The notes beneath the pieces were generated by a model. That model was not told the DNA's origin and made no database searches. It saw only the letters and a program-made list of their open reading frames with translations. Shown here one piece after another: positions 1-29,049 of a stretch of 29,049 bases of DNA; positions within the stretch are counted from its first letter, which is position 1; every line of letters begins with the position of its first letter. Source of the DNA: a virus; the IMG/VR virus record IMGVR_UViG_3300031656_000023, positions 1 to 29,049 of that record; one strand, given 5' to 3'. The position numbers and the translations under genes were made by a program.

Positions 1-3000
1 ACCTATATCGTATGTTCCTGTTGGTCCAGTTGCTATAATATTTTGTGTTGTTATATCACCACTAAATGTACCACCTGGGAATGGATTACCAGTTGGTCCA
101 GTAGCACCTGTGGATCCCTTATCACCGGATGGTCCTGCTACAGTACTGTTTTCACCTTTCTGACCTTTAGATCCATTGCTACCATCATTACCTTGTGGTC
201 CAATATTACCTTGCGGTCCTTGTAACCCTTGGGCTCCTTGAGCTCCCTTGTCACCTGTGACACCAACTTCACCTTTATTACCCTGAGCACCTGCTGTACC
301 TTGAAATCCTTGAGCACCTTGAGCTCCCTTATCACCTGTAGTACCTGCTGTACCTTGAGCTCCTTGAGCTCCTGTGACGCCTTTCTGTCCTTGAGGTCCG
401 ACTGGTCCAACATTTCCTTGTGGTCCTTGTGGTCCTGTTGCCCCTGCTGGTCCTGTTGCCCCAACTTCGCCTTTATTACCTACGTTGCCTTGTGGTCCTT
501 GAGCACCTGTTGGTCCAACTTCACCTTTATTACCTACGTTGCCTTGTGGTCCTTGAGCACCCGTGGCTCCTTTATCGCCAGTAGTACCTTGAGCACCGGT
601 GGCTCCTTGAGCTCCTTTATCACCTGTTGTTCCTTGTGGTCCTGTTGGTCCTTGTGGGCCTAATGGTCCTTGAGCACCTGTGGCTCCTTTATCGCCAGTA
701 GTACCTTGAGCTCCTTGAGCTCCCTTATCACCTTGTGGGCCGCTATCTTTTGCTACCCAATCATAGTCTGAACCATTGTAACTTAATACTTCGCCTGTTG
801 CGGCTGATGATCTGTTTATCTGCGTATCTACTCTGGCATCTGTGTAATATAAATTTGTGCCTTCTGATAAATCTGTTGTACTTCTTGTACTTAATGCTGT
901 TGCTTGTAGTTTACCACTTGCGTCAAACAATACTGCTGAACTTGGTCCTACAATACTGTCAGTGAATGTAGTACTAGCACTAAATGTCTTAGCACCGGCA
1001 ACTGTTTGTGTTCCACTTGTTCTTACAACTGTACTGTCAACTGCCAATGTTGCTTCACCGCTTGTTGCTCCACCACTTAAACCATCGCCTGCTACAACAC
1101 TTGTAACATCGCCTGCTTCAGTTAATGATAAAATACCTGTAGCATTATCGTATGCTAATGCTGTACCACTAACACTAATAGCCGCTCTGGCTCTTGCTGT
1201 TGTATGGTATAAATTTGTTCCTTCTGTTACGTTTGATGTGGTTCCGTTCCAACTAATAGCACCTGTGCCACTGTTGTATGTTACGCCACCACTCGCACTT
1301 AACGATGCTCTTGCTCTAGCATCTGTATAATATAAATTTGACGAGCCTTCTGTTACTACGTCTGTGTCACCTGTAAAGGAAACAGTTACTACGTCACTTG
1401 CTTCTGCTATGCCTAACCCTGTACCTACTGCTAAATTTCGTGATACATGTAAGTTACCAGTTTTCTTCATTAAGTTTTTGCGTGTAGATGTTTCTACACC
1501 GCTTGATGCGTTTGTTAATGAGAATGGATCTACTGCTGATAGTGTTACTAGACTACCTTGAGCAATACCTTTAATGTTATTTCCATCATAAAATATCATA
1601 CCGTCTAATGTGCCGGCCGCTCTTGCTGTTGCTATAGCGCCACTGCTTTGTGCTGGATCTATTTGTGCTAAACTGACATTGGACGAATCCAATAGTCTTA
1701 AATTTTGTATAGTTGTTAAACCATTTTTTGTCATCTCTAAAACAGGACTTGATGTAACACCTCTGGCATTTACAAATTGTACTGATGAATTTGCCTGTGC
1801 TGAATCCAAGTTATACTGGAACTGTAATGCTCCACCACTGTATGCTTTTAATGTGCTGTCGTTACCTAAAATCTGTGTAGCACTTGTTGTGTGGAATGCG
1901 TTATTGCTTATCTCTGTCGCATCGTAGAATCCTATTTGTGCTCCACCTACTGTTACGGCATTACTGAATAAGTTAATATCTGTATTCTTAATGTTTAAGC
2001 CACCTGTGGTAGTTGCCGATGCTGTTGGTGTTATGTTCGCATAGTTAAAGTTAACTGTAGTAATATCTGCTTGGTTACTGTGTATGTTATTAATCTTTTT
2101 AGTCGAACTACCTAGGCTACCTTCATTGGTAACTTTTGGTACAATATCATTGCCCAATTCCCATTGATTAGTAGACACCGCACCGCTAAATGTTGTTGCT
2201 GTAATTGTGCCTGCGGCAAAGTTACCCGAACCGTCCCTGGCTACAACTTTACTTGCTGTATTTGTTGTTGTGGCATCTACGGCTATATCGTCTACGTTAG
2301 CAATTATGTAATTACCTGCGCCAATAGTAAATGTTCTGTTAGCAGTTAAATTTCCGCCACCTGTTAAGCCTACGCCTGCTATTAAATCAATTGCCTTTAA
2401 GTTTGTAATGTCGCCTGTGTTATTTGTTACGGCAGTACCTAAACTAGCATCGTCATTTAATGCCGCGGCTAATTCATTTAGTGTATTTAATGTACCTGGT
2501 GCTCCGTCTATTAAACTTGTAATTGCTGTTTCTACATAGGCTGTAGAGGCCGCTTTAGTTGAGTTATCACCAGCAACATAGTTGCCACCTGATGAACTAG
2601 GCATTGTTACTGCCGGTAGTACAACACTTGTACTAAACGTTTTAGCACCTGCTATACTTTGTGTACCAGTTGTTCTTATAACTGTACTGTCAACGTCTAC
2701 AACACCACTAGCAAAGTCTATTCCGTCTCCGCCAGTTACATGGGCTCTTACTTCACTGGCACTTGGGCCTGTGTAAGTAATTACACCAGTTGTACTATTG
2801 TATGCTAATGATCCGTCTCCGCCTGCGTCAGTAACACTTATCAATGCTCTTGCTTCGGCATCAAAGTCTGTAACTTGCGTATGCGGTATTGCTATGATTA
2901 CATCTGCCGCCGTTGTTAATTGTCCTTGTGCGTTTACAGTAAACGTTGGTACTGCCGAAACACTACCATAGGCCGAGGCTGTAACGCCTGAATTTGTAAT

Positions 3001-3804
3001 ACTAAATGCGCCACTGCTATATGTAAGTCCTGTGCCGGCACTTAGATGTGCTCGTATTTCACTAGCACTTGCGCCTACTGATGTTATTACACCAGTGCCG
3101 CTGTTATATGATAATGACCCATCGCCACTATGTGTAGCACTAATGCTAAGTCTTGCTCTAGCATCTGTATAATATAAATTTGAACCTTCTGTTAGATCTG
3201 CTGTAGTTGAACTACTTTCGTCTATTAACTTAATCCAGTTGCCACCATGAGCAAAGTATCCTTTTGCTGTGCCATGTACATGAGCAAACATTCCGTGGTA
3301 TGTTGCCGCACTTGGTAAATCTCCTTCTGCGGCATACATGTTACCAAATAAAACTTTGTTTCCTGCCATGTCAAGATCAGCACCTGTTATCTCTGTTCTT
3401 GCTCTTGCGTTAGTATAATATAAATTAGTGCCTTCTGATAAATCTGTTGTAGACTTAGTTCCTAATCTAGTATCAAATCTTGCGGTAGTATAATATAAAT
3501 TAGTACCTTCTGATAAGTTGCTTGTAGATAATCCGCTTATTGAACTAGCAGTTACACTACCTGAAATACCACCTACAAATGTGTGGTTAGTTCCGTCCCA
3601 ACTTATTGTACCGTCTGACAGACCTGATGCTCTAAATTTTAGTGTTGAAGTAGTAGTACCCTGGTCTGCGTTAATAATAATCTGATCATCGTTTACTCGC
3701 AGTTCATTGGTACTGGATATAACAGTATCACCTGTTTGGTTAATTGTTGTACCAGTTAGGTCAATGTTGCCTTGGGATCTGATTATATGTTTTTTATCTG
3801 CCAT
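1..3804 (-). CDS. Giant tail-fibre-like protein with collagen-like C-terminal region (3' end beyond left edge)
   Basis: An open frame of 1268 codons runs from an ATG at 3804 off the left edge with no stop. The start follows GGAG by a good spacing and a late promoter box lies at 3839-3846. The protein begins MADKKHIIRSQGNIDL. It carries six copies of a SEGTNLYYTDARAR-like motif (coded near 3500, 3420, 3170, 1330, 1210 and 850), paired blocks of the type ASExRAHxxxG and VxRTxGTQxxAGAKTFS, and a KAASTAYVETAI element of the kind seen in phage fibres. From about residue 1020 it becomes a Gly-X-Y collagen-like repeat. Such repeat-built, glycine/serine/threonine-rich proteins are typical of tail fibres and other virion appendages; host-receptor binding is inferred from architecture. 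The receptor-binding tip, if present, lies outside the window. Confidence 0.75.
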   Translation of the reverse strand, partial: MADKKHIIRSQGNIDLTGTTINQTGDTVISSTNELRVNDDQIIINADQGTTTSTLKFRASGLSDGTISWDGTNHTFVGGISGSVTASSISGLSTSNLSEGTNLYYTTARFDTRLGTKSTTDLSEGTNLYYTNARARTEITGADLDMAGNKVLFGNMYAAEGDLPSAATYHGMFAHVHGTAKGYFAHGGNWIKLIDESSSTTADLTEGSNLYYTDARARLSISATHSGDGSLSYNSGTGVITSVGASASEIRAHLSAGTGLTYSSGAFSITNSGVTASAYGSVSAVPTFTVNAQGQLTTAADVIIAIPHTQVTDFDAEARALISVTDAGGDGSLAYNSTTGVITYTGPSASEVRAHVTGGDGIDFASGVVDVDSTVIRTTGTQSIAGAKTFSTSVVLPAVTMPSSSGGNYVAGDNSTKAASTAYVETAITSLIDGAPGTLNTLNELAAALNDDASLGTAVTNNTGDITNLKAIDLIAGVGLTGGGNLTANRTFTIGAGNYIIANVDDIAVDATTTNTASKVVARDGSGNFAAGTITATTFSGAVSTNQWELGNDIVPKVTNEGSLGSSTKKINNIHSNQADITTVNFNYANITPTASATTTGGLNIKNTDINLFSNAVTVGGAQIGFYDATEISNNAFHTTSATQILGNDSTLKAYSGGALQFQYNLDSAQANSSVQFVNARGVTSSPVLEMTKNGLTTIQNLRLLDSSNVSLAQIDPAQSSGAIATARAAGTLDGMIFYDGNNIKGIAQGSLVTLSAVDPFSLTNASSGVETSTRKNLMKKTGNLHVSRNLAVGTGLGIAEASDVVTVSFTGDTDVVTEGSSNLYYTDARARASLSASGGVTYNSGTGAISWNGTTSNVTEGTNLYHTTARARAAISVSGTALAYDNATGILSLTEAGDVTSVVAGDGLSGGATSGEATLAVDSTVVRTSGTQTVAGAKTFSASTTFTDSIVGPSSAVLFDASGKLQATALSTRSTTDLSEGTNLYYTDARVDTQINRSSAATGEVLSYNGSDYDWVAKDSGPQGDKGAQGAQGTTGDKGATGAQGPLGPQGPTGPQGTTGDKGAQGATGAQGTTGDKGATGAQGPQGNVGNKGEVGPTGAQGPQGNVGNKGEVGATGPAGATGPQGPQGNVGPVGPQGQKGVTGAQGAQGTAGTTGDKGAQGAQGFQGTAGAQGNKGEVGVTGDKGAQGAQGLQGPQGNIGPQGNDGSNGSKGQKGENSTVAGPSGDKGSTGATGPTGNPFPGGTFSGDITTQNIIATGPTGTYDIG
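97..744 (-). repeat. Collagen-like Gly-X-Y repeat region
   Basis: Within the fibre gene about 70 consecutive Gly-X-Y triplets are coded, rich in GPQ, GDK, GAQ, GAT and GNK. At DNA level this gives short imperfect repeats of ccttgtggtcct/ccttgagcacct type. Collagen-like stretches in phage fibres form trimeric rods; the repeats are also prone to length change by recombination or slippage, and to assembly collapse. Confidence 0.9.
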
Positions 3805-13531: not shown

Positions 13532-13565
13532 GATATAATTAAAATATGTTATAATGGAGCAAAGA

Positions 13566-14417
13566 ATGACAGCAAAGAACACATTACAGGATTTTTATAG
13601 ATCCCCTAAACTATATGTAGGCCTACCAAGCGGTGGTGCTTTTTACGACAGCGATGTAATTGACTGGCCAGAGACCAATGAGTTACCAGTGTTAGCAATG
13701 ACACCGAAAGACGACTTAATTGTTCGCAACCCAGACGCATTACTTAACGGCGATGCTGTAATTAGATTGGTTAAAAGTTGTGTACCCAGCATTAAAAAGC
13801 CGGAAGAAATTATTGCTCCTGACATGGAACTGCTATTAGTAGCAATTAGAGCCGCATCAGAATCAAAAAAACAACTCACAGTTGATCATAAATGCGAAAA
13901 GTGTGAGCATGAGATGTCTTTTGATGTTGATCTAGGTTTAGCAGTCCAAGACTTCGAACCAATTGAGGATTTAACTGAGTTTGGTTTACAAAACGGTTTA
14001 ACTATTGGTGTAAAGCCAGCAAACTACTTGTATGCTATTCAAACTGCCAAATCCATGATCGAACAAGCAAACCTACTAGGTAGAATTGCTAACGAAGAAG
14101 CAGATAACGAAGAGCAACGAATTAAAGACATTGGCAATGCGTTTGAAAAAATGGCTAACTTTAATTATAGTGTACTTGTTAATAGTGTTAAATATATAAA
14201 GATACCCGACGTCGAAGAACATGTTGAAGATTTCAAAGAGATTTTAGACTTCATTGATAATGTTGACGCAAATGTTGGTAGAGAAATTACTGAAGCAGTA
14301 GGCAAAATTAACAACGGCGGTATTAACAAAACATACAACGCAAATTGCGAAGAATGTGACGAACCATTTGAAGTACCACTCGACTTCGACCCAGTAAGTT
14401 TTTTCTTAACTTCCTAA
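13566..14417 (+). CDS. 26: Baseplate hub protein, gp26-like (zero-frame product)
   Basis: 283 residues from the ATG at 13566, chosen over the in-frame ATG at 13554 because GGAG (13556-13559) sits 6 nt before it. The segment LNGDAVIRLVKSCVPSIKKPEEI, then a helical part and two Cys pairs, CEKCEHEM and CEECDEPFEVPLDFDP, match the T4 baseplate (gp26) family of tape-measure-associated hub factors; the four Cys could bind zinc. It ends DFDPVSFFLTS, and the two Phe codons lie on a slippery heptamer leading into the -1 frame. Together with the divergent tape-measure-like gene this recalls lambda G/GT, where the frameshift product acts as tail chaperone. Confidence 0.8.
   Translation: MTAKNTLQDFYRSPKLYVGLPSGGAFYDSDVIDWPETNELPVLAMTPKDDLIVRNPDALLNGDAVIRLVKSCVPSIKKPEEIIAPDMELLLVAIRAASESKKQLTVDHKCEKCEHEMSFDVDLGLAVQDFEPIEDLTEFGLQNGLTIGVKPANYLYAIQTAKSMIEQANLLGRIANEEADNEEQRIKDIGNAFEKMANFNYSVLVNSVKYIKIPDVEEHVEDFKEILDFIDNVDANVGREITEAVGKINNGGINKTYNANCEECDEPFEVPLDFDPVSFFLTS
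14399..14405 (+). promoter_or_regulatory. Slippery heptamer T TTT TTC for programmed -1 frameshifting
   Basis: In phase with the gp26-like frame (agT TTT TTC TTA) four codons before its stop. Slipping one base back reads CTT AAC TTC CTA AAT and enters the open -1 frame that ends at 14650, giving a 361-residue fusion instead of 283. A weak hairpin CCTG-AAGACAT-CAGG follows at 14429-14443. Confidence 0.75.
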
Positions 14418-14650
14418 ATAGAGCAGAACCTGAAGACATCAGGGACTATTTGGGATTACTCCAAGAGCAATCGGAACTAATTTCTAGAGGTGTATATGAC
14501 TTGGTTATATATACAGAAGGATCCATTACATTAGCAGAAGCGTGGAGTATCGACGGTGATACTAGACGTGGAGTTATGGATAGTTTTGAAGAGTTTGTTA
14601 AAGCAAAGAATCCAGGCGGTAAAAACGAAATGAAACAAGAGCAGATGTAA
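14405..14650 (+). CDS. 51: gp51-like module reached by -1 frameshift from gp26-like gene
   Basis: 81 residues in the -1 frame (LNFLNRAEPEDIRDYLGLLQ to the end). It has no ATG until codon 59 and no convincing ribosome site: the only early start is TTG at 14450 behind a weak AGGG. Segment VIYTEGSITLAEAWSIDGD has the look of the small hub-assembly factor that follows gp26 in T4 (gene 51, hub assembly catalyst) and of the T part of GT-type tail chaperones. It stops one base before the convergent neighbour's stop. Separate translation from TTG is the alternative. Confidence 0.65.
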   Translation, partial: LNFLNRAEPEDIRDYLGLLQEQSELISRGVYDLVIYTEGSITLAEAWSIDGDTRRGVMDSFEEFVKAKNPGGKNEMKQEQM

Positions 14651-15577
14651 CTATAAGTATAAATCCTGCTCGTCATTGCCATTAAGAAACCTAATATACC
14701 CTTTATAATCCTCATTTAAGTTGTTTAAATGCTCGATATCCATTGATTCCACCTGTGTTATTATGTGTCCGACCTCTGTGTTATCGGTTAATTTACCGAC
14801 TTCTTTTAGATAATTCAGTGTTTTATTGTACGCATTGGCACTCTGAACTTTGTATTTTACCCTATCGTACATAGGTACTTGCTCGTCTTGTTGTAAGTGT
14901 AGCAATGCGTGATTGATATTCCTGTGTAGTACAAGTCTCATCTCGTCGGCCTCGCTTAATACCATGCCTAAGACTGCGTATAAGCCGTTGTCGCCGGTGT
15001 TCTGTGTTAATGTTACTACATGTTCCAGGCCACCAATAGCAGACGTTGTAAGCACTCTATTATAGAACTGAAACCATGACAGTTCATTGCGTATCATTAT
15101 GCCGGCATGGGCAAGGGTTATGGTATACCGCTCCGGCTCAAAATTTCTATCAGCCACATTAAGTAAACAGTAACGGTCATCGTCCTGTACAATAATCCAA
15201 TCGTACTCCGGATCTACATTCATAGTCTTTGCACTATCTATGTCTCCCGGATACAATAGCACTAGTGCTTCATTATCAGTACCGTAGACTTCCTGTAATA
15301 CGTCCTCGCCAAACTTGTTTAACAAGTAAGGAGCACTCGCACACCTAAAAAATTTATTTGCTGTTTCGACACAACACCTACTCACTGCTAACTGGCATTC
15401 TATAAAGTCCTGTACATGTCCATCTATACCACCCATGCTTGTAGGCAAGAGTAGTTTGAATAACCCTAGTTGTTTAAACCGTTGTAAGTTATCTGCGTAA
15501 GTGCTGTTGGTTATTAAGTCACAACTATCTATAAACTTATGTTTTATGTGTAACCAATTATCTTGTACTGGAATCAT
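14651..15577 (-). CDS. Acyl-CoA-dehydrogenase-like protein, reduced form
   Basis: 308 residues. Residues 31-75 read as the N-terminal helical domain of acyl-CoA dehydrogenases and related flavin monooxygenases: FKQLGLFKLLLPTSMGG followed by DFIECQLAVSRCCVETA, then YLLNKFGEDVLQEVYG (84-99). The middle GDIDSAKTM / IIVQDDDRYCLLNV resembles the beta domain, and residues 170-300 are helical as in the C-terminal domain. It is about 75-100 residues shorter than family members, and I see no catalytic-Glu loop, so activity is uncertain. It has its own late box exactly 5 nt upstream of the ATG and no ribosome site. The gene ends back-to-back with the gp51-like frame, without a spacer. Not a known T4 function; role unknown. 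Confidence 0.55.
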   Translation of the reverse strand: MIPVQDNWLHIKHKFIDSCDLITNSTYADNLQRFKQLGLFKLLLPTSMGGIDGHVQDFIECQLAVSRCCVETANKFFRCASAPYLLNKFGEDVLQEVYGTDNEALVLLYPGDIDSAKTMNVDPEYDWIIVQDDDRYCLLNVADRNFEPERYTITLAHAGIMIRNELSWFQFYNRVLTTSAIGGLEHVVTLTQNTGDNGLYAVLGMVLSEADEMRLVLHRNINHALLHLQQDEQVPMYDRVKYKVQSANAYNKTLNYLKEVGKLTDNTEVGHIITQVESMDIEHLNNLNEDYKGYIRFLNGNDEQDLYL

Positions 15578-15582
15578 ATCTA

Positions 15583-15590
15583 TATTTATA
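15583..15590 (-). promoter_or_regulatory. Perfect T4 late promoter TATAAATA, 5 nt from ATG
   Basis: TATAAATA on the minus strand, five bases before the ATG at 15577. As the T4 late box spans about -13 to -6, the predicted first base is the A of the ATG, a leaderless mRNA. A hairpin AGACAC-TTC-GTGTCT (15604-15618) lies just upstream. Confidence 0.7.
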
Positions 15591-15603
15591 TGTTTACTTT
15601 ATT

Positions 15604-16148
15604 AGACACTTCGTGTCTTTGCCAACTTCAAACTTCATTCACTTCGTTTCATGATAGTTTTTGTTTGCAATTTTTTAAAACATTTAAGTTATCAAGTAAC
15701 TTGAGCCATAATTCTCCTTAAGCAAGGAGAAGCATGTCAGGTGTCATCAAGTGAACCATTACCATCTCTAACTCGGGTGCTACTAGGAACCGGTGAGCCT
15801 TCTGTCCCCATACACTACCGTCTCGAATCTCACGGAAGTCTGTATAACGTTGTAGAGTTCTGTTACACAAACTTGTAGGTTGCTTTTTCTCAGTGCCTAC
15901 ATTCTTCTAATACTGTTTGTCGTTTGTTTGTATCTTTGCCGCTATACATCTCCAATTCTCGCACCGGGGCTACCGGATTGTCGAGGAGCCAGATATTCAA
16001 TGCCTCTGTTGGGGCGGGTGTATAGTCCTATGTGGGTGCCGTAATGCGAGTTAGACTTAGCGTCTGTGTGTGCCGTGTTTTTTGTGTTCTTCAGTAATTA
16101 GTTATCGTTTCTCAACGTTGAGTCAAACATTTTGTGAGTTACCCTTAT
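15604..16148. other. 545-nt gap without a convincing gene; possible structured RNA or decayed sequence
   Basis: The only long gap in the window. Both flanking genes carry late boxes at their very start, so the gap is not their leader. All three minus frames give protein-like fragments (for example WLLDNPVAPVRELEMYSGKD and GIEYLAPRQSGSPGARIGD), but none is longer than about 65 codons or has a start with ribosome site. Base composition is balanced (about 47% G+C at 15721-16080, 62% at 15961-16020). Possible stems: TGTAGG/CCTACA (about 15873-15902), CCGGTGAG/CTCACGG with one bulge (about 15790-15835), GCACC/GGTGC (15961-15965 with about 16035-16039), and the palindrome CTCAACGTTGAG (16111-16122). 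No tRNA found. A TTGACT on the minus strand (16121-16126) lacks a good -10 partner. Confidence 0.35.
15712..15731. other. Perfect 8-bp hairpin containing a Shine-Dalgarno sequence on both strands
   Basis: TTCTCCTT-AAGC-AAGGAGAA. Read on plus, AAGGAG precedes ATG at 15734 and a 6-codon frame (MSGVIK); read on minus, AAGGAG precedes an ATG and a 5-codon frame (MAQVT). In each case the ribosome site would be locked in the stem. Could be a translational switch, part of a larger RNA, or chance. Confidence 0.45.
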
Positions 16149-16156
16149 CATAAATA
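16149..16156 (+). promoter_or_regulatory. Late promoter box CATAAATA, 5 nt from ATG
   Basis: Plus strand; five bases (acagc) separate it from the oxygenase ATG at 16162, with no ribosome site, predicting a leaderless transcript as for two other genes here. Confidence 0.65.
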
Positions 16157-16161
16157 ACAGC

Positions 16162-16659
16162 ATGGACCCTATTATAATAAACGGCATGTTAACTAGCGAT
16201 CAGTGTGCTGACATCATAAACCAGTTACCAGACGATTCACATCACATGCCTGGCGGTACTACACTAGCACCTGGCCACTGGACTGATGCTGTCTGGAACG
16301 AAACACATAAAACTTTTAACACCCACCGAATAAGATTAGAACAGGATTCAGCGGCACATGTTAGCAGTTTAATTAAACCAGTAAGTATAGAATCAGAAAC
16401 ATACACCGTATCAAACAAAGATAATTTCTACGCAAATTATTATCTTCCTGGCGAAAGTTGTGGCTCACATAAAGATCCATCTAAGTATTCAATATGTGTT
16501 ACTCTTAATGATGAGTTTGAGGGCGGAGAATTTTCTATTAAGAATGAGCCGGTAAAACTAAAAGCAGGCGATGGTATACTTTTTTCAGGTAATAGCACTC
16601 ACGCATTAAGCGAAATAGTTTCTGGTAAAAGGTGGAGTTTATGTATCTGGATTTTTTGA
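16162..16659 (+). CDS. 2-oxoglutarate/Fe(II)-dependent oxygenase, prolyl-4-hydroxylase-like
   Basis: 165 residues. The double-stranded beta-helix metal triad is visible as H103-x-D105 in GSHKDPS and H147 in NSTHALSEI, with R157 in SGKRWSL as the 2-oxoglutarate carboxylate binder, and GGEFSI plus KAGDGILFSG as typical strands. These enzymes hydroxylate proteins, nucleic acids or small molecules using O2 and 2-oxoglutarate; the substrate cannot be told. They are frequent in marine T4-like phages. The last 21 nt overlap the convergent nuclease gene. Confidence 0.85.
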   Translation: MDPIIINGMLTSDQCADIINQLPDDSHHMPGGTTLAPGHWTDAVWNETHKTFNTHRIRLEQDSAAHVSSLIKPVSIESETYTVSNKDNFYANYYLPGESCGSHKDPSKYSICVTLNDEFEGGEFSIKNEPVKLKAGDGILFSGNSTHALSEIVSGKRWSLCIWIF

Positions 16660-17085
16660 GTCTTCTTTAAGACCTTCACGTAAGATTTTTGAACCACCAA
16701 TACGAACGTTGATAATTCCATTGTAGTACTCATCTGAGAGCAACACTTTTCTTTCAAACTGTTCTCTTGCCTCTATATAACTAGCAACACCCCTGCTAGG
16801 ACAAAAGTACAAAATTTCTCTAGTAAATTTATCTTCCCCGAGTGCTAAAACGTCTTCTTTTAAATTATCTGAACTGCCCCAATACTCACGCCAGTCTGAT
16901 TCTTTGGTACCGCGTCTTTTATTCTTTTTGCCTTTTAGTGGAGGTTTTGTTGTTTTGAATTTTGCTAACTTTTTGCCAACATACTTTTTGTCGTTGGTAT
17001 TGTTAGTTATTAGGTATACAAATGCTTCGCAGTCTTCGGGGAGGGTATCTACTACGTTGTTATTATGTAACCAATCACTGAGCAT
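16639..17085 (-). CDS. GIY-YIG-like endonuclease
   Basis: 148 residues from ATG 17085, which has GGAG at 7-nt spacing; the ATG at 17091 is too close to it. In numbering from 17091, FVYLITN (24-30) and KKYVGKK (36-41) are the two GIY-YIG strands, EYWGSS (69-74) and REILYF (91-96) follow with candidate R91, E107 in YIEAREQFE is the candidate metal-binding Glu, and N124 in YYNGIIN completes the pattern. Similar proteins in marine T4-like phages are called Seg/Hef-like homing endonucleases. It overlaps the gp46 3' end by 11 nt, so it may be a mobile gene that became coupled to the recombination operon, or a resident repair nuclease. Confidence 0.7.
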   Translation of the reverse strand: MLSDWLHNNNVVDTLPEDCEAFVYLITNNTNDKKYVGKKLAKFKTTKPPLKGKKNKRRGTKESDWREYWGSSDNLKEDVLALGEDKFTREILYFCPSRGVASYIEAREQFERKVLLSDEYYNGIINVRIGGSKILREGLKEDSKNPDT

Positions 17086-18847
17086 TAACATACTCCGTGT
17101 CGGTGTTGTAACTAGTGAAGCCTCCTTCCTTAATCACAAATAATACATCATTGACTCTACCACTTAATTCTTCTCTGTGCGAAATAAGGAATATATTTTT
17201 ATTTTGCTCTCTGCTCATTTTCTTAAGTATACCAAGTGCGTTCTCTACGCCTGTAGCATCTAAGCCACTGTCAATGAGCTCATCAATACACAAGAAGTTC
17301 ATTGGATGATTAAGACTTTCAAAAATATCTCTAAATGCCCAACTTAAACTTAGTATAAGTCTGTTACGCTCACCTCTGCTTAAATTATCAAAGTCTAGGT
17401 CTCTACCATACTCTGTAATCTCTACACTTAGGTCACTGTTAAACTTGACATCATGCGGCAAGCCAATTTCATTTAAGTAATGTGCTAGTCTGTGATTTAA
17501 GTAAGCAATGTTTTGATCAATGATACGTCTTCTAATAAAACTGTCTTTGCTTGTTAGCAGTTTGTATAAAAACTCTTGATGGTCTTTAAGAGCAGTAAGT
17601 TCGTTAATTAAATCCCAACTGACTTCTTGTATGCCTGTATTTTTCATAGACTCTATTTGATCTATGTATGGATTTTCTTCGCTATGCTTTGATCTAGTAC
17701 TTTCAATTAAGTTATCAACATTATTTCTGTGTGTTAATGCTTCTTCTAATGTTTTGTAGAATGTACTTGGACGATCCTCTACAGGACCAAGTAATCCAAT
17801 ACCGTCTTTTAAATCTTCTTCTTTAATAGTTAAACCAGTAAAGTATTCTTTTTCTTCTGCTATCTTGGTCTCTAACTCTTTTGTGTATACTTCATGTGTG
17901 TCTAAATGTGCTGTACCTTGTTCACATGTAGGGCACACTCCTTCCTTTGCTTTTACTAAGTTTGCTTCTAGCTCACTTAATTTGCTTGTACTTCTTTTAA
18001 AAGAGTTCTGTGTGTTAGATAAGTTGTTTGCTAATATATTTAAATTTGCTTCATGGTCCTTGATAACAACTAACTGGTTATGTTTTGCTACTTCACTGTC
18101 AACATCAATTTCTTTTAACTGCTCTAGAGCAGATGCCATTTCGCCTAACTTAATGTCTTTGTTTCTTTCCCATGCGTTACTGCGACTTTCTAATTCTTTA
18201 ATGTTCTTGCCCATACGTTCGTTGCTGTCTTTTACAGCATTAATACGCATTTCTTCTTCTTTGATACCGTCTCTAGTATCCTTTTGTTTGTCTTTAAGTA
18301 TTTCCGCTTTTTGCGACAGTTCTTCTATGCCAAGTAACTGCTCGATCATTTCTCGCTGATCGTTGTTTTTCATACCCAAGAATGGTTCAGTATAAGTGTT
18401 TAATGCTACAATGTGCTTAAACATTTGATGACTAAAGCCAATAATTTTTTCTATTTCTTTTTGTGTTTCTCTACTGTCGCCTTGTTGCTCTTGGTCTTCT
18501 AGTTCAGAACCGTCAACAAACAATCGTAACACATTAGGACGCCTGCCCCTTTCAATACGATATTCTTTACCGTTAAGTTCAAAGTCACATGATACAATCA
18601 TGCCTTTGGCATTTGTTTTGTTAATTAAGTTATCACGCCTAATGTTTGTTAATGCTTCTCCGTAAAGAGCATAACTGAGTGCGTTAATAATAGTAGTCTT
18701 GCCTGTGCCGTTTCTACTACCGTCGCCACCTAGGTCTAAGTTATTACCTAGCACTAAGGTTAAGTGCTTATCATCAAACCTAACGCCTTGGACGTTATTT
18801 CCGACGCTCATGAAATTCTTTACACTGATGTTTTTTATGTTTAGCAT
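17075..18847 (-). CDS. 46: Recombination endonuclease ATPase subunit, gp46-like (SbcC/Rad50 family)
   Basis: 590 residues (T4 gp46: 560). Walker A NGTGKTT at 46-52 after the usual GNN segment, long coiled-coil arms, a zinc hook CPTC at 305-308, the ABC signature LSRGERNR at 489-496 and Walker B FLCIDEL at 518-524. With gp47 it resects DNA ends for recombination-dependent replication and host DNA breakdown. The stop of the gp47 gene is 1 nt before its ATG. Part of the gp55-gp47-gp46 operon. Confidence 0.96.
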   Translation of the reverse strand: MLNIKNISVKNFMSVGNNVQGVRFDDKHLTLVLGNNLDLGGDGSRNGTGKTTIINALSYALYGEALTNIRRDNLINKTNAKGMIVSCDFELNGKEYRIERGRRPNVLRLFVDGSELEDQEQQGDSRETQKEIEKIIGFSHQMFKHIVALNTYTEPFLGMKNNDQREMIEQLLGIEELSQKAEILKDKQKDTRDGIKEEEMRINAVKDSNERMGKNIKELESRSNAWERNKDIKLGEMASALEQLKEIDVDSEVAKHNQLVVIKDHEANLNILANNLSNTQNSFKRSTSKLSELEANLVKAKEGVCPTCEQGTAHLDTHEVYTKELETKIAEEKEYFTGLTIKEEDLKDGIGLLGPVEDRPSTFYKTLEEALTHRNNVDNLIESTRSKHSEENPYIDQIESMKNTGIQEVSWDLINELTALKDHQEFLYKLLTSKDSFIRRRIIDQNIAYLNHRLAHYLNEIGLPHDVKFNSDLSVEITEYGRDLDFDNLSRGERNRLILSLSWAFRDIFESLNHPMNFLCIDELIDSGLDATGVENALGILKKMSREQNKNIFLISHREELSGRVNDVLFVIKEGGFTSYNTDTEYVNAQ

Positions 18848-27735: not shown

Positions 27736-29049
27736 TTACCAGTTATACTTAACTGTTAAGTGGATTTCACGCCCTTCGCTGTTATAACCAGGCACAACTT
27801 CTACTTCTTCATCTGTGATATTCTCAACTTTAAAGTTTAAAGCAACACCGTTAGTAAACGTTTTTGTAGCATAAAAATTAAGTTTCTTAAGATCATCCAT
27901 AAATTGTTGTCCGTCGCCTAGCATGTCATACGGTCCAGGAAGTCTATCAAACTGTCCGGCATACTTTACTCTATAGTTAATATCGTTAAATGTTTGTTGC
28001 CATGTTATGACACCAACATACTCGGGTACTCTAGTTTGATCTGTGTCGTTTATTTTTAACATTAACGATACAGGACCCCATGTGTTAGCAAATCTAACAC
28101 CCTGTGTTTTATAACTACCAGAGTTAAGATATGTTGCGTTAGTCCAAACATCAGTACTACTAGCCGTTTCTACCATCTCTATAACATCGTCGCTTTCGTC
28201 AACAGCATTTGCGATAGGCATTATAGTGTTATACCCGGGGGTATACTCAATTGACTCTTCAAAGTCATATATGAATACACTTAGTACACCATAACCTACT
28301 TCGTAACCTACCCCTTCTTCTGGTAATAAGCCTTCATTGCCGTCAACATAAATGTCGCCAACAGTTTCGTATAAGTTTGGTCGTCTATAACTAGTACCTA
28401 CATTCATAAAGAATGCGTCTTTCTCAATACCAAATCTCATTGCGTTTTGATCGTTGTTGCCTGCTCTAAAACCAAAGTTATACTTTAAAGCAAACTCGGC
28501 ATTGATACTAAGATATGCTCCGTAGTTATCCTGTTCGCTTTCCATGTATTGCTCTTTACTTCCATCGACACCATATGTAACTTGTAATAAGTTAGATAAG
28601 TTTACAGTATCTCCTGCTCTAAAATAGTCTCTACTGCTTTCATTTTGATAAGTGCTTACACCTTCAGTGAAGTAGTCAGCCTTTTCTTCTGTTCTACCAA
28701 TAGTAAAATACTCGTTCCTGACACTTACAGTAAACTTTTTACCGTCCTGTAAGCAATCATTACTTTGACTGAAACCAGCAGTATAACAATTATCATAATC
28801 GTAAGCATAATCTGTCGCACTTACAATAAATTCAAAGTCGCCTGCGTCGGCAATAATTTTTACACTTTGATTCTCGTATGTGTCGCTTTCTGTGTTGTCG
28901 TTTCTTGCTTGTTGTTCAACCGTAAAATCTGTATACTGTAACCATGTAGTTGGTGCGACACTTACATAGTAATGTTTGTTACTGCCTAGTCTTGCTGTGG
29001 CACTTCTTTCTATGGTATCTTCTATTAATACAGTTCCAGCAATACTGCC
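27736..29049 (-). CDS. TonB-dependent outer-membrane receptor, BtuB-like, C-terminal part (5' end beyond right edge)
   Basis: The frame is open for 437 codons from the right edge to a TAA at 27736. It has the alternating-strand, aromatic-rich look of a 22-strand beta barrel. MNVGTSYRRPNLYETVGD followed by GLLPEEGVGYEVGYG is the classic barrel segment of TonB-dependent receptors, SGSYKTQGVRFANTW another, and the end VENITDEEVEVVPGYNSEGR / EIHLTVKYNW matches the last strands of the BtuB (vitamin B12) group, closing on an aromatic residue as outer-membrane proteins do. Signal peptide, TonB box and plug domain would lie outside the window. Such receptors bind and import cobalamin, siderophores or sugars; ligand unknown. 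Confidence 0.82.
   Translation of the reverse strand, partial: GSIAGTVLIEDTIERSATARLGSNKHYYVSVAPTTWLQYTDFTVEQQARNDNTESDTYENQSVKIIADAGDFEFIVSATDYAYDYDNCYTAGFSQSNDCLQDGKKFTVSVRNEYFTIGRTEEKADYFTEGVSTYQNESSRDYFRAGDTVNLSNLLQVTYGVDGSKEQYMESEQDNYGAYLSINAEFALKYNFGFRAGNNDQNAMRFGIEKDAFFMNVGTSYRRPNLYETVGDIYVDGNEGLLPEEGVGYEVGYGVLSVFIYDFEESIEYTPGYNTIMPIANAVDESDDVIEMVETASSTDVWTNATYLNSGSYKTQGVRFANTWGPVSLMLKINDTDQTRVPEYVGVITWQQTFNDINYRVKYAGQFDRLPGPYDMLGDGQQFMDDLKKLNFYATKTFTNGVALNFKVENITDEEVEVVPGYNSEGREIHLTVKYNW

Follow-up and report, generated by a model that had tools for sequence, protein, structure and literature searches.

A conserved slippery heptamer and a probable −1 frameshift in the tail chaperone gene of a T4-superfamily virus record

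The locus described here is very probably a tail assembly chaperone (TAC) locus of the T4 superfamily, in which the TAC-N protein is the normal product and some ribosomes slip by −1 on the heptamer T TTT TTC, giving a longer protein, TAC-NC. It lies in a 29,049-base IMG/VR virus record, IMGVR_UViG_3300031656_000023 (hereafter the window; it is not a whole genome), which also encodes T4-type portal and major capsid proteins (Table 1). In the proposed mechanism, most ribosomes would read the 0 frame and produce TAC-N (283 amino acids), whereas a minority would slip on the heptamer, aided by a stem-loop 6 nt downstream, and would produce TAC-NC (361 amino acids), with an extra helical C-terminal domain. 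If the analogy with gpG and gpGT of phage lambda holds, the tape measure protein would be coated by TAC-N, with the C domain bringing in tail tube subunits. What we infer are the frameshift efficiency, the part played by the stem-loop and the function as a chaperone.

Table 1. Positions of the TAC locus and its divergent neighbour in the window
Feature	Position	Strand	Remark
TAC-N gene (T4 gp26-like, PF12322)	13566..14417	+	283 aa from ATG at 13566
Slippery heptamer T TTT TTC	14399–14405	+	in phase for tandem −1 slippage
ORF2, −1 frame, TAC-C extension (gp51 C-terminus-like)	14399..14650	+	predicted frameshift product
Predicted stimulatory stem-loop	14412..14455	+	6 nt after heptamer
Candidate tape measure gene, divergent neighbour, 911 aa	10714..13449	−	position only

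The start of TAC-N given in Table 1 is preceded by GGAG at 13557–13560, and the N-terminus of the window protein aligns with those of its relatives. This ATG is more likely to be the start than the upstream ATG at 13554, which is possible. The fusion would have 361 amino acids from the former and 365 from the latter; the length of 361 residues proposed earlier thus holds for the likelier start and fails for the other. The 0-frame gene ends GTA AGT TTT TTC TTA ACT TCC TAA, with the stop at 14415–14417; in the −1 frame, no stop interrupts the reading from 14372 until 14648–14650. After a slip, the −1 reading would continue as CTT AAC TTC CTA and so on for 81 codons, 77 of them past the 0-frame stop. 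Within ORF2 of the window, the first ATG is only reached at codon 59 after the slip site, and the first TTG, at codon 17, has no ribosome site. A reading made from the sequence alone (the sequence-only reading) had described an in-phase heptamer near the end of a gp26-like gene and a −1 frame open for 81 codons without an early ATG or ribosome site, and both descriptions proved accurate.

The 0-frame protein matches the Pfam family PF12322 (T4_baseplate) with 60.5 bits against a cut-off of 24.5 (E 2.5e-16), as well as phrog_150 (baseplate hub; E 2e-17), in agreement with the earlier view of the N-terminal protein as gp26-like. T4 gp26 and T4 gp51 each match PF12322 across their N-terminal ~200 residues; in gp51 the match spans residues 1–201 and is followed by ~45 extra residues. 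Since gp51 comprises a gp26-like part plus an extension, the predicted fusion (TAC-NC) would be the counterpart of gp51 in its entirety, and gp26 that of TAC-N. The idea of a fusion of gp26 with gp51 is supported with regard to the C-terminal extension, which is probably of the gp51 type, but has to be amended with regard to gp51, which is itself a PF12322 protein carrying that extension.

ORF2 of the window had no family match of its own in Pfam or PHROG; it is homologous to the ORF2 of relatives, the best match being SCTP-2 (29%, E 6e-9). The family phrog_634 (baseplate hub assembly catalyst) matches ORF2 of cyanophages, HTVC008M, KVP40, phiM12 and phiM9, and also the C-terminal part of T4 gp51. 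Profiles of ORF2 form a chain from jumbo phages to cyanophages (E 4e-4) and from cyanophages to gp51 residues 200–245 (E 4e-5), so that the link of the window ORF2 to T4 gp51 appears to run via the cyanophage profiles. For the N domain, the corresponding values are E 7e-16 (jumbo to cyanophage) and E 1e-16 (cyanophage to gp26), and this link was obtained through Pfam and cyanophage intermediates; single-sequence hhalign comparisons of T4 gp26 and gp51 with the jumbo profiles were too weak to use. In AlphaFold models, the N domain has a pLDDT of 86, and the C domain consists of four helices with a pLDDT of 84. The N-domain model matches the “baseplate hub” models of many phages in BFVD. Foldseek searches of the PDB with both models returned nothing meaningful (no match at E <= 0.001); known TAC structures were absent, and this result excludes nothing. 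The records of RaK2 and PA5oct leave ORF2 unannotated. PHROG 18291 (unknown function) matches the ORF2 of RaK2 (3331–3552 of the RaK2 locus; E 6e-31), and could be renamed as a frameshifted chaperone extension.

The programmed −1 frameshift proposed by the sequence-only reading is supported by conservation of the heptamer across relatives. A tblastn search matched 61 phage records, nearly all of jumbo myophages, with identities of 25–32%. Used alone as query, the window protein gave no match in viral contigs, and contig relatives were reached via PA5oct and then an IMG/VR intermediate; a search of genome contigs yielded no relatives. Among the window and 12 chosen jumbo relatives, the heptamer is T TTT TTC in 11 and T TTT TTT in two; the distance from heptamer to stop is 9–39 nt, and past the stop the −1 frame continues open for 58–77 codons. 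An in-phase heptamer followed by an open −1 frame is also found in P-SSM2, S-PM2, HTVC008M, phiM12, phiW-14, phiM9 (as the variant T TTT TTG), KVP40, Cr30 and Astolliot. The named relatives with in-phase T TTT TT(C/T/G) and an open −1 frame number 21 and range from cyanophages to jumbo phages. IMG/VR was scanned twice with protein queries, without use of the junction, which gave 61 unique informative loci of cyanophage type and 57 of jumbo type; in every one of these 118, T TTT TTC is in phase and the −1 frame is open. All informative relatives examined that have a single PF12322 copy carry both features. An alignment of homologues had been suggested as a check on whether the heptamer and the frame relation are conserved, and they are kept in 118 of 118 contig loci and in the 21 named phages.

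Given the amino acids and the codon usage of the gene itself, the probability of the heptamer in the window alone is ~0.23, i.e., the heptamer in this one sequence is unremarkable. For 18 divergent phages jointly, the probability falls to 10^-12.8, and for all 138 sequences, which are not independent, to 10^-58.9. Judged from these alignments, the heptamer signal is not chance, and it is conservation that lifts the heptamer of the window above chance. It is scarcely credible that the heptamer has been retained only through conservation of two phenylalanines in the protein. F283 and F284 are indeed invariant in the alignments, but the position before them is occupied by N, S, D, A, H, T or R, each time with a codon that ends in T, and TTT is the only codon used for the first Phe; because this synonymous choice is fixed, as measured by the joint value for the 18 phages, the Phe-Phe explanation is refuted. 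Furthermore, T4 gp26 keeps the two phenylalanines, encoded as GAG TTC TTT, without a heptamer. The second frame could instead arise by slippage of RNA polymerase on the T6 tract, rather than by slippage of the ribosome, and all loci of the frameshift type do contain six consecutive T. This has a very small probability: six T is short for polymerase slippage, and the fixed codon phase, the usual C as seventh base and a correctly spaced RNA stem are what would be expected of tandem tRNA slippage.

Selection acts on ORF2 in one frame. The pN/pS ratio in the −1 frame is 0.16 for the cyanophage type (98 close pairs) and 0.24 for the jumbo type (272 pairs), compared with 1.4–2.0 in the other two frames over ORF2 of the relatives; the −1 frame is the only one in which ORF2 shows purifying selection. 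The second ORF is thus coding, overlapping and in the −1 frame, and it has no start of its own in the window; some relatives have an early ATG, mostly without an SD-like site. A coding ORF2 might also be a separate small gene, whose translation begins by reinitiation or coupling where the gp26-like gene ends; this is suggested by the separate annotation of gp51 in many cyanophage records and by an ATG 3–5 codons after the slip site in several relatives. We regard this as highly unlikely, since an early start is lacking in the window, in PA5oct and in most jumbo-type loci, few loci have an SD-like site near an early start (1 of 57 of jumbo type and 8 of 61 of cyanophage type), and a separate gene would leave the invariant heptamer, its phase and the stem unexplained.

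The stem-loop predicted downstream of the heptamer in the window has a folding energy of −14.9 kcal/mol, with z −3.25 when 51 nt (14405–14455) are considered and only −1.1 in a stretch of 86 nt. When the relatives were scanned in 50 nt segments at nine offsets, an excess of stability was found right after the slip site (mean z −2.9 for the cyanophage type, −1.7 for the jumbo type and −1.6 for the named phages); everywhere else, mean z lay between −1.0 and +0.5. Pairing of the stem over 45 unique sequences of the jumbo type reached 78% of cells, whereas none of 300 shuffles exceeded 73% and slid versions gave 32–47%. Compensating A-U/G-C exchanges occur at two inner pairs of the jumbo-type stem; the counts of pair types alone were not above those of the shuffles. 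RNAalifold found no consensus structure for the mixed cyanophage set, because stems differ between subgroups. The cyanophage-type loci have a further element: GAGG or AGGA, which is SD-like, lies 8–10 nt upstream of the heptamer in 45 of 61, as an SD-like element does in dnaX of E. coli. A stimulator of this kind was also sought upstream of the slip site in the window and the 57 loci of jumbo type, none of which has it.

T4 itself has the same PF12322 N domain and the same two-product logic as the window (gp26 as TAC-N, gp51 as TAC-NC), but the T4 group has two diverged genes without a heptamer, whereas the window has one gene with a frameshift. Two PF12322 genes are present in T4, Aeromonas phage 31, IME13 and KARL-1, whose gp26 genes end without a slippery site, and RB43 has two PF12322 copies; the other tested genomes with a PF12322 match have a single copy plus the heptamer. 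SCTP-2 has the heptamer, and its gene was missed by the PF12322 search of genomes. One frameshifted gene and two separate genes are mutually exclusive in the sampled genomes, and this mutual exclusion is strong circumstantial evidence that the two arrangements would make the same pair of products. Since KVP40, a member of the same family as T4, uses the frameshift, it is reasonable to infer that the duplication is the derived state. Perhaps the frameshift is ancestral and near-universal across the T4 superfamily, including jumbo phages, with stimulators that are specific to lineages (a widespread downstream stem-loop and, in cyanophages, an added SD-like element), and T4 genes 26 and 51 arose by a duplication that replaced the frameshift; we consider this whole picture plausible, at somewhat less than even odds, and its breadth and the stimulators may be unreported.

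In phage lambda, the tape measure protein is coated by the pair gpG and gpGT, which also brings in tube subunits, and conserved TAC frameshifts were reportedly described by Xu, Hendrix & Duda in 2004. As proposed for the window, a −1 slip in lambda occurs close to where a short tail chaperone ORF ends and leads into an ORF without a start of its own, so the comparison drawn in the sequence-only reading is a sound one. The likeness is one of arrangement: the lambda slippery sequence is GGGAAAG as opposed to T TTT TTC, and the candidate tape measure gene in the window is divergent. In Kyanoviridae, the arrangement and the heptamer of gp26 and gp51, the “baseplate hub assembly catalyst” (phrog_634), are identical to those of the window; however, they are annotated as two genes, and most have the SD-like element upstream of the slip site that the window lacks. 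The TAC genes of Vandenendeviridae and Andersonviridae (phage Adele, GTTTTT motif; PMC12846349) resemble the window in having a conserved −1 frame and a T-rich slip site at the end of TAC-N, but these are different phage families from that of the window.

The sequence-only reading knew of no description of such a fusion for T4-like phages. That the fusion is undescribed is not supported: PMC10885494 and PMC12846349 both cite Vladimirov, Gautam & Davidson 2022 (Virology 566:9–15; known here via these citing papers) on T4-like TAC genes and poly-T signals. According to the PRFect paper, which cites that study, some T4-like phages have one short gene and one long, fused gene in place of TAC frameshifting (PMC10885494), and the paper on Adele credits the same study with poly-T slippery sequences in T4-like TAC-N genes (PMC12846349). 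Going by these citing passages, frameshifting in TAC genes has been described before, poly-T sites in the TAC-N genes of T4-like phages included, and the window is a solid new instance and not a new phenomenon. Its significance lies in the correction of annotation, in that gp26 and gp51 of cyanophages, vibriophages and jumbo phages would be one frameshifted chaperone gene, and ORF2, often unannotated or called hypothetical, a real coding domain. It also offers a natural comparison of two ways to set a chaperone ratio: by a frameshift in one gene or, as in T4, by two genes.

A divergent neighbour beside the portal gene is common to PA5oct, BF, XaC1, CBB, RaK2, 121Q and GAP32, and the RaK2 record annotates it with similarity to a tail tape measure protein. 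The 911-residue neighbour in the window had no family hit in Pfam or PHROG, and its position makes it a candidate tape measure protein. TAC genes usually precede the tape measure gene; in the window, the candidate gene adjoins the TAC gene but is divergent, not directly downstream. In Cr30, the annotated tape measure gene comes shortly after the TAC pair and is read in the same direction.

Several other features of the window can be recorded. Converging on ORF2 from the minus strand is a gene for a 308-residue protein (14651–15577) that weakly matches acyl-CoA dehydrogenase-like flavoproteins (PDB 2jbr, E 0.0024; below the cut-off in Pfam) and, if real, would be unusual cargo for a phage. It is followed by ~580 bases (15580–16160) without a clear gene and without an Rfam or tRNA match; scans of the whole window for Rfam families and tRNAs were empty. 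Next come a 2OG-Fe(II) oxygenase-like gene (16162–16659, plus strand; PF13640, E 7e-7) and a SegE-type GIY-YIG homing endonuclease gene (16639–17091, minus strand; PF19835, E 1.6e-32), the latter beside a gene for a recombination-endonuclease-like ATPase. A frame of at least 437 codons runs off the window end on the minus strand (27736–29049); it had no match in Pfam or the PDB, resembles by eye the C-terminal barrel of a TonB-dependent receptor, and might reflect a join between contigs or the capture of a host gene. At the opposite end, positions 1–700 form a low-complexity, collagen-like region with long open frames on both strands, in which the frame at 138–464 (minus strand) has, by eye, three-residue repeats that are glycine-poor but collagen-like.
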